Origin: Pricia antarctica | GTDB lineage: Bacteria > Bacteroidota > Bacteroidia > Flavobacteriales > Flavobacteriaceae | Length of the DNA stretch: 64,000 nt | NCBI RefSeq assembly: GCF_900101815.1 | Contig: NZ_FNAO01000009.1 | Span: 124,001 to 188,000 of the forward strand | Direction of reading: 5' to 3' | Part shown: one piece after another, positions 61,394-64,000 of the stretch | How positions within the stretch are numbered: the stretch's first letter is position 1 | How the letters are laid out: each line of letters starts with the position of its first letter | The notes under the pieces: model-generated | Database searches by the model: none | Told to the model about the DNA's origin: nothing | Seen by the model: only the letters and a program-made list of their open reading frames with translations | Program-made: the position numbers and the translations under genes

Positions 61394-62812
61394 ATGAAGA
61401 AACTACTTTTTATACTCCTTTTTATTCCCAATCTCTTTTTTGCACAATCGGCATTGCGGTTGCCCGATATTCTTAGCGACCATATGCTACTGCAGCAAGA
61501 TTCAGAAGTGAAGTTCTGGGGATGGGCCAACCCACGTTCAAAAATCCAGATTATCACGGATTGGAACAGCGACACCCTTAGAACAACGGCAAGCAATAAA
61601 GCAAAATGGGAAGCCCTACTAAAAACGCCAAAGGCGGGAGGTCCCTTTAGTATTCAAGTTTTAACTGAAGAAGAGAGGATTACTATCGAAGATGTTATGA
61701 TCGGTGAACTTTGGATCTGTTCGGGACAATCGAACATGGAATATAACGCGGACAAAGGCATAATCGATGCCAAGACGGCCCTGCCGGACAGCAAAAATGA
61801 TCAAATCCGGTTTTTCTTTGTTGAAAAAGCAACAGCCGATTATCCACAAGACGAGCTCACGGGGCATTGGGAGATATGCGGTCCCGAAAGTATGCGCAAG
61901 TTCAGTTCGGTCGGTTACTTCTTTGGACGAAAATTGAACGAAGAACTGAACATCCCCGTCGGGCTTATCAACTCAAACTGGGGAGGAACTCCTGTAGAAA
62001 CCTGGATTCCCAATGACGAAATCAAGGATTTGGAAAAAGTACAGGCCGAAGTCCAGAATTTAAATGACAGTGAAGGCTGGGACCGTGATATTGCTACCAC
62101 CTATAATGCCATGATCCATCCCCTCACAAAAATGAGGATTGCTGGCACTATCTGGTATCAGGGGGAATCGAATACCCCGAATGCGAATTCCTATTCAACC
62201 CTTTTTACCACGATGATTGAAGGATGGAGGGCAAAATTCCAAAACGAATTTCCATTTTATTACGTGCAGATTGCTCCTTTTCAAGGTTATAGCATCCCTT
62301 TTAGTGCGGCCATCGTACGGGAGCAGCAGCAAAAGGCATCATCCTTTGAGAAGTCGGGAATGGTAGTTATTTCCGATTTGGTAGACGACGTGGACGACAT
62401 CCATCCTAAATATAAAAAGGAGGTGGGAAATCGATTGGCCAATTGGGCCTTGGCGGAAACCTACGCCAAAGAAACACCGAAGTATACGTTCGCGACAGTA
62501 AAGGAACAAAAAATCAATGGCGCTAAGATTCAGGTCTCTTTCGACAATGTAGGTGAAGGTCTCGTCGTAAAGAGAAAACGTATCGAGGCCCTAGAAATCG
62601 CCGGGGCAGATAAGAAGTTTTATCCCGCCGACGGGAAAATTGACAAAGACACAAGTACCCTAATCGTAACGTCTAAAAAGGTTAAAAATCCTAGGTTTGT
62701 TCGCTATATGTTCGGAAATGGAAGCATAGGAAACCTGTTCGATGAATCGGGTCTGCCTGTTGCCCCGTTTAGGACGGATGAGATTGTTTATGATGTATCG
62801 GAAAACCCGTAG
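61394..62812 (+). CDS. Sialate O-acetylesterase-like SGNH esterase
   Basis: A 472-residue secreted protein with a signal peptide ending at FFAQS. The nucleophile is S113 in the ICSGQSNMEY motif; SNWGGTPVETW near 195 and IWYQGESN near 255 are further family blocks, and DDVDDIHPKYKKEVGNRL near 335 gives the catalytic Asp/His. Family members remove acetyl groups from sialic acids or plant and algal polysaccharides. It stands alone on the plus strand, convergent with the GH16 remnant, which it may once have accompanied. Confidence 0.85.
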   Translation: MKKLLFILLFIPNLFFAQSALRLPDILSDHMLLQQDSEVKFWGWANPRSKIQIITDWNSDTLRTTASNKAKWEALLKTPKAGGPFSIQVLTEEERITIEDVMIGELWICSGQSNMEYNADKGIIDAKTALPDSKNDQIRFFFVEKATADYPQDELTGHWEICGPESMRKFSSVGYFFGRKLNEELNIPVGLINSNWGGTPVETWIPNDEIKDLEKVQAEVQNLNDSEGWDRDIATTYNAMIHPLTKMRIAGTIWYQGESNTPNANSYSTLFTTMIEGWRAKFQNEFPFYYVQIAPFQGYSIPFSAAIVREQQQKASSFEKSGMVVISDLVDDVDDIHPKYKKEVGNRLANWALAETYAKETPKYTFATVKEQKINGAKIQVSFDNVGEGLVVKRKRIEALEIAGADKKFYPADGKIDKDTSTLIVTSKKVKNPRFVRYMFGNGSIGNLFDESGLPVAPFRTDEIVYDVSENP

Positions 62813-62827
62813 CGTCTGAGTACCTCT

Positions 62828-63345
62828 TTAAAAATAGTATTGATAAATCCGCACATAATCAATTTCAAAGGTGTCAAAGGTGAAATCCGGTGGAACATCT
62901 CCACCCAAATTACCGCCCATAGCTATATTCAATAGGAGATAGTGTGGGTTGTCAAAAGGGTTGTCTTGCGTGTTCGGAAGATCAACGACCACATTGTCGT
63001 CTACGGTCAATTTTATCTTTTATTTATGGAAATATATATTATCGACATCAATGGTCATGGCACCCATGGGTGGCCCTGCTTAAATGAACTGTGCAATATT
63101 AGATCTGGCGGTAAGTCTGGGTAAATCGGTAAAAGGGATGTCTAGAGATAGCCATGTATTTTGTTGTATATCTGAAATTGTTATTTCATGTTCCGTATCG
63201 TCCCCGCCATCAAAGGCCCAATCAGGCCCAAAATCTACAAGCTTTATCCTGATTTCGGTGGCATCGGCCGTCCATATATCCGTATGGAAGAATTCCATAT
63301 CAGAGGCAAAATAGCCGTTTCAGAGGAAAAAATAATTGAATTGGT
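62828..63345 (-). pseudogene. Remnant of a GH16-type secreted enzyme with carbohydrate-binding module
   Basis: One minus-strand frame carries two recognisable pieces interrupted by stops near 63320, at 63080-63082 and at 63020-63022. The upstream piece (63080-63298, DATEIRIKLVDFGPD, then DNIYFHK) is the C-terminal carbohydrate-binding-like module of flavobacterial GH16 enzymes. The downstream piece (62828-63019, VDDNVVVDLPN, NPFDNPHYLLLNIAMGG, DYVRIYQ) is the last part of a GH16 barrel sandwich. The catalytic core between them is missing, so an internal deletion has joined two remnants. Confidence 0.75.
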
Positions 63346-63420
63346 TAATAATGATTTACTTATCGCATTGCCATATTGAACGTGGCCAAACGATTACCAA
63401 CCCCCTTCCAGTACCCTTAG

Positions 63421-63467
63421 AAAATAAAAAATCCATAACTCCTTAATTAAAAGTGTGCTATGGATTT
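63421..63467 (-). terminator. Intrinsic terminator downstream of the tRNA remnant
   Basis: A perfect 9-bp stem AAATCCATA/TATGGATTT (63429-63437 and 63459-63467) with a 21-base loop. On the minus strand it is followed by a T-rich run, TTTTTTATTTT. It starts 7 bp from the tRNA 3' end and is the natural terminator of that tRNA gene. Confidence 0.75.
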
Positions 63468-63473
63468 AAACCG

Positions 63474-63520
63474 TGGTCCCACCTGGGCTCGAACCAGGGA
63501 CCACCTGATTATGAGCCAAG
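63474..63520 (-). other. 3' half of a tRNA(CAU) gene at an integration site (attachment site)
   Basis: Minus strand: anticodon loop CTCATAA (anticodon CAT), 3' anticodon stem TCAGG, a short variable region, a perfect T-arm CCTGG-TTCGAGC-CCAGG, then acceptor half TGGGACC and discriminator A. The 5' anticodon stem (CTTGG) pairs only partly, and upstream there is no D-arm or 5' acceptor strand, only AT-rich sequence. The 3' half of a tRNA alone beside an integrase gene is the classical boundary of an integrated element. The intact gene should be at the other end, beyond the window. Confidence 0.75.
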
Positions 63521-63620
63521 TTTTTGGACTCCAAACCACACCACATCATAACATAAATACTTTATTTTCAACAATTTAATGAATTTTGTACTCATTTAAA
63601 TTTGTTTATAACTATCCGTT

Positions 63621-63697
63621 TGCGTGCAAATTGCGTGCAAATTTTTATGGGTAATTCCTTAAATTTGTGTGAGTTATATTTTTTCTGCGTGCAAATT
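63621..63697. repeat. Three copies of a 12-bp repeat between attachment site and integrase
   Basis: TGCGTGCAAATT occurs at 63621-63632, 63632-63643 and 63686-63697, all in the same orientation. The first two are one helical turn apart and the third lies 16 bp before the integrase ATG. They fit arm-type binding sites for the integrase N-terminal domain, and could also repress its promoter. The remaining 63521-63620 shows no gene. Confidence 0.65.
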
Positions 63698-63712
63698 TAA
63701 TCTCTTTAATAG

Positions 63713-64000
63713 ATGAAAACCAGTGTAACCCTTAGTTTGGACAAAAGGCGTTCCCAAAAGAACGGTGACTATCCCATTGTTCTGCGCCTTACCCATTATA
63801 GAAAAACAACCGGAATTTCTACAGGACAATCGATACCGGAATTATTCTGGGACCAGAACAAAAGTAAGGTCAAAAAGAACTATGATGGAATAAAATCCGT
63901 TGGCAATCTGAATAATTTTCTGCTAAAAGAATTGGGAAATGCCCAGGATGTAATTAATAGGCTTCATGAGAAAGGGGAACTCAGTTATCTATCCTTGGTC
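63713..64000 (+). CDS. Tyrosine recombinase/integrase, N-terminal part
   Basis: The first 96 residues from an ATG at 63713: MKTSVTLSLDKRRSQ, then YPIVLRLTHYRKTTGISTGQ, matching the Arm-DNA-binding domain of Bacteroidota phage and ICE integrases; IPELFWDQNKSKVKK and a following helical SAM-like start also fit. The catalytic R-H-R-Y domain lies beyond the window. It stands 190 bp from the tRNA half and reads away from it, into the integrated element. Confidence 0.85.
   Translation, partial: MKTSVTLSLDKRRSQKNGDYPIVLRLTHYRKTTGISTGQSIPELFWDQNKSKVKKNYDGIKSVGNLNNFLLKELGNAQDVINRLHEKGELSYLSLV

Follow-up and report, generated by a model that had tools for sequence, protein, structure and literature searches.

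Islander counts 2083 islands with an anticodon-centred attP (site A), following the sublocation classes of Williams 2002 (PMC4383910). CAU tRNA genes are also used by ICEs: in Chryseobacterium, ICECleSHZ29 targets a gene annotated tRNA-Met-CAT at its 3' end, where the repeat is 17 bp long, and the ICECleSHZ29-like ICEs share a common backbone while their integrases use different tRNA genes (PMC12561888). In the open-licence literature we found no publication on the integration site described here. The DNA that we analysed (the window, 64,000 nt) is C27:124001-188000 of the 52-contig, 4.85-Mb genome of Pricia antarctica (G000), in which C27 is 212,361 long. With a probability of about 93%, we read window positions 63473-63515 as the attachment site on the integrase side of an ICE that measures at least 43 kb and extends to an intact tRNA(CAU) gene on contig C15.

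The displaced tRNA half and its surroundings

The original prediction placed a tRNA(CAU) 3' half with its own terminator at 63421-64000, followed by an outward-reading Arm-type integrase gene. An exact 43-bp match and a folded hairpin confirm the tRNA half and the terminator. The Arm-type assignment also stands, the arm domain being matched, but the orientation does not: the plus-strand open reading frame at 63713 runs from the attachment site into the element. The features of the region are as follows.

61394-62812, plus strand: chromosomal flank, a putative esterase-like gene, syntenic with C15:26862-28286 of genome G001
63429-63467, minus strand: stem of the chromosomal rho-independent terminator of the original tRNA gene (fold -13.3 kcal/mol, z -4.5), with a T-run to about 63419
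63473-63515, minus strand: displaced 3' half of tRNA(CAU), a 43-bp direct repeat and probable integrase-side attachment site, an exact match to C15:684909-684951
63509-63515, minus strand: anticodon loop CTCATAA, the putative crossover/overlap region; identity of the two att copies begins exactly here, Ile2-type elements share the breakpoint, and other tRNAs break at the equivalent loop
63621-63632, plus strand: putative arm-type site 1, TGCGTGCAAATT, a period-11 pair with site 2, conserved in relatives
63632-63643, plus strand: putative arm-type site 2, TGCGTGCAAATT, 11 bp from site 1
63686-63697, plus strand: putative arm-type site 3, TGCGTGCAAATT
63713-64000, continuing to C27:188933, plus strand: 5' part of a tyrosine integrase gene (406 aa; Arm-DNA-bind_5, Phage_int_SAM_5 and Phage_integrase)

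Read on the minus strand, positions 63515 to 63473 give CTCATAATCAGGTGGTCCCTGGTTCGAGCCCAGGTGGGACCAC, which runs from the anticodon loop through the end of the tRNA. The 4.85-Mb genome holds exactly one more copy, inside the intact tRNA at C15:684877-684951, and ARAGORN detects no whole tRNA in the 64,000-nt window. Exact identity sets in with the first base of the anticodon loop, and beyond either edge of the repeat the two copies diverge; an exact match of 43 bp is far beyond chance. An intact tRNA, a direct repeat of about 45 bp and a second copy of the tRNA half within about 200 kb to the right had been anticipated; both the tRNA and the repeat exist, but the repeat measures 43 bp and its partner copy is on C15, as C27 stops 24.4 kb to the right. 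On the chromosomal side, adjoining the insertion site, the minus strand of window 62828-63379 carries short open reading frames that resemble the remains of a single disrupted gene, by eye perhaps for a glycoside hydrolase.

ARAGORN labels the C15 tRNA as Met from its CAU anticodon. We replaced this identity with an Ile2-type one because in E. coli it matches best (81%) a gene annotated as tRNA-Ile, whose anticodon loop is also CTCATAA, and because the other two of the three CAU tRNAs seen among 30 fetched loci (of 37 tRNA matches in the genome) resemble initiator and elongator Met; the other CAU tRNA at L115 gave weak, mixed matches to E. coli. With its CAU anticodon on an Ile2-type body, the target is most likely the AUA-decoding tRNA-Ile2(CAU), and would be lysidinylated. 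A 19-bp motif of this tRNA has only two copies at up to one mismatch in the 99.99%-complete assembly, and no second intact copy of the target was found in the genome. This gives a name to the element's target, a CAU tRNA that is presumably essential.

The integrase gene lies inside the element near its end, and 198 bp separate its start codon from the tRNA half. In an alignment to XerA, the catalytic motifs retain the Arg of box II, the His of LGH and the Tyr, and have Tyr where the first box II His would stand; the nearest PDB relatives are only XerA/XerD-like catalytic domains. The C15 end carries the reverse complement of TGCGTGCAAATT, in tandem, 48 bp beyond the intact tRNA. The 11-bp arm-type repeats agree at both ends and covary among related elements, with GCGTGC here versus ATGTGC in Maribacter; the ends of the Christiangramia element are alike by eye, with a CGTGTGA-like repeat.

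Element content and the probable joining of two contigs

Beyond the tRNA, C15 encodes SSB, a MobB relaxase (DUF5712), a coupling protein, and PLD, TPR and nSTAND proteins. Beyond the tRNA half, C27 encodes the integrase, an AraC/TPR regulator, RteC, TraG/VirB4, TraK, TraM, TraN and a type IIG restriction-modification enzyme. Integrase, relaxase, coupling protein and VirB4/T4SS, the gene set of an ICE, are all present, distributed over two contigs that are joined by synteny. The TraG protein scores as a TraG family conjugative transposon ATPase (TIGR03783, 307 bits, above the cut-off of 261.55). The scores of TraK, TraM and TraN (96.9, 76 and 56.7 bits) fall below the NCBI equivalog cut-offs of 152, 172 and 164; by sequence, these are homologues of the CTnDOT proteins and not equivalogs. 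The original prediction that an integrative element begins at the tRNA half and extends to the right is supported and can be refined to an ICE, and the accessory systems that it was expected to carry are represented by defence-type cargo. The type IIG gene (C27:204105-207341, minus strand) consists of two open reading frames with one in-frame TAA between them, the frame being open past the TAA. A 1132-aa element protein (C15:699078-702476, minus strand) with DUF4062, an nSTAND NTPase and leucine-rich repeats is a candidate defence protein, for which PADLOC gave no match. The element is a Bacteroidetes-type ICE, a further case of a long-known phenomenon; its boundary is fixed, with restriction-modification and nSTAND-type cargo inside.

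The in-frame TAA, and with it at least one cargo gene that looks broken, could be taken to mark a dead remnant, that is, a genomic island boundary without a functional element. We consider this improbable, as the reading frames of the integrase, VirB4 and relaxase are full length and the arm sites are intact at both ends.

Two observations on the flanks argue for a single insertion. In a genome of the same genus (G001), contig C15 aligns with window 1-62794 in ascending and with C15:664489-684962 of G000 in descending order, and the intact G001 tRNA stands at the join; since both flanks align in opposite directions, they were once neighbours with the tRNA between them. The 29.5 kb between the flanks in G001 look like ordinary chromosomal genes (ORF list, by eye), and we rejected another element at this position because integrase, tra and relaxase genes are absent from that list by the same inspection. 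In G021, of the same family, an uninterrupted tRNA runs straight into a terminator that resembles the window's, which represents the empty site; in Maribacter ulvicola (G060) the tRNA half, too, is followed by a near-identical terminator.

The interior of the element points the same way. Homologues of both the C27 and the C15 modules occur on one contig in G001 (C30) and G002 (C1), in the orientation predicted. In G001, G002, G258 and G377 the best homologues of the relaxase and of VirB4 are on opposite strands with 9-51 kb between them, which is the prediction for C15 (plus) joined to C27 (minus). Both contigs stop in the same 95-bp repeat, which has 11 matching places, and they enter it in the same orientation. 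A join through one copy of this repeat was therefore rejected, and at least two repeat copies or another contig must lie between them. We infer that C15:684951 to C27:187473 (window 63473), whose ends are on different contigs, is one insertion, with an intact tRNA at one end, a displaced fragment at the other and an identical direct repeat; its known parts sum to 43.3 kb.

The lack of a direct join between the contigs, which run into one repeat in the same orientation, would also fit two different insertions, for instance in a tandem array, with C15 holding the tRNA end of one, C27 the integrase end of the other, and their partner ends elsewhere. Stacked insertions seem to occur in this genome, as C17 has a tRNA-Asn half followed by what appears to be another element end. 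Two elements are nevertheless slightly less probable still than a remnant, given that the tRNA motif has only its two copies, that the relaxase and coupling protein of C15 and the mating-pair genes of C27 are complementary modules matching single-contig homologues, and that both ends have matching arm sites. For a third reading, in which a tRNA-like fragment lies beside an unrelated integrase by chance and no integration took place, we found no evidence; the exact 43-bp match and the tRNA halves beside 15 of 16 integrase relatives described below refute it. One ICE inserted into the C15 tRNA remains our reading of both ends.

Crossover position, arm-type sites and target tRNAs

The position of the crossover rests on relatives, because a 43-bp identity within one genome cannot localise it. 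In Maribacter and Christiangramia, six homologues of the integrase (57-66% identity) each adjoin this tRNA half with the cut at the identical base, and in four of the six the intact tRNA is found 9-17 kb away on the same contig (two of these four share a near-identical element). The tRNA half also begins at this base in further elements, in G016, G040, G038 and others. In G029, in a pair that may or may not go with a homologous integrase, the intact and displaced tRNA copies differ in the T-stem, which places the crossover of that pair 5' of the T-stem. The relatives examined support the earlier proposal of a crossover in or near the anticodon loop CTCATAA. In two Maribacter genomes (L068 and L069), the same element end is followed by different flanking DNA past the tRNA half, so that the boundary shows in a natural comparison.

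This site anatomy, together with what is generally known of tyrosine integrases, suggests the following mechanism. The N-terminal arm domain of the integrase would bind the arm-type sites, with the tRNA anticodon stem-loop providing the core sites, and the circular attP would recombine with the tRNA gene across the anticodon loop. On the C15 side, a working tRNA would be restored by the 43-bp 3' half and the terminator that the element brings along, and the original 3' half would be displaced to the integrase side together with the terminator of the chromosome. Excision is predicted to reverse these steps and to yield a circle for conjugation, at whose junction the integrase-side arm sites would be followed by the 43-bp core CTCATAATCAGG...GGGACCAC and then by AAGTAAAATCAGGGCTTCG; the restored chromosomal site would read tRNA-GGTTTAAATCC.

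A survey of 349 genomes of the family gave 16 further integrase matches, in 15 genomes. All but one of these have, upstream, the 3' half of a tRNA whose cut lies at the anticodon loop; the anticodons are CAU (2), GGC (5), UCU (6), UAC (1) and GUU (1). The period-11 arm repeat, or a close variant of it, is present in most of them. The evidence tilts slightly toward an integrase lineage that keeps TGCGTGCAAATT-type period-11 arm sites and the exact anticodon-loop crossover and switches between at least five tRNA genes (CAU, GGC, UCU, UAC and GUU), with related integrases at the same site serving a full ICE and small mobilizable elements. If true, this would provide a clean natural series on core-specificity change in tyrosine integrases.

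A different integrase in the same Pricia genome (C17:2033-3509; L004, L011) adjoins a tRNA(GUU, Asn) 3' half that is cut at the anticodon loop. This half is followed by a terminator and then by TTTGCACGCAATTTGCACGC, which equals the arm sites of the window's element, and the matching intact tRNA is at C27:3908-3981 (minus strand), near the contig start. The C17 segment probably represents what is left of one end of an earlier element in the same group.

Comparison with described elements

In its tyrosine integrase, its split and regenerated tRNA, its displaced 3' fragment and its probable anticodon-loop crossover, the element is like the site A islands of Islander; there is no difference in kind, and what differs is the host group and the tRNA (Ile2-type CAU). 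A flavobacterial integrase group can thereby be assigned to the anticodon-loop class, and its readable arm sites make specificity and tRNA switching easy to test. ICECleSHZ29 is likewise an ICE, in a tRNA annotated Met-CAT and in a related family, but its site, at the 3' end of the tRNA, is a different one. With the CTnDOT-type tra region the element has in common TraG (TIGR03783 above cut-off), the TraK, TraM and TraN models, RteC and a MobB relaxase; it differs from CTnDOT in its sub-cut-off TraK, TraM and TraN, its integrase, which probably uses a tRNA anticodon loop, and the AraC-type TPR protein beside the integrase. Also close are the small integrative elements of Maribacter (G060 and G061, 9 kb) and Christiangramia (G062, 17 kb), which have a homologous integrase (57-63% identity) and the same tRNA, cut and arm-site layout. 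No tra operon was seen in the 9-kb G060 (L177) and 17-kb G062 (L178) elements, and the latter also has regulators and a glycosyltransferase (by eye). These elements differ from the ICE of the window in their size of 9-17 kb and in their ORFs, which by eye resemble relaxase, mobilisation and primase proteins.
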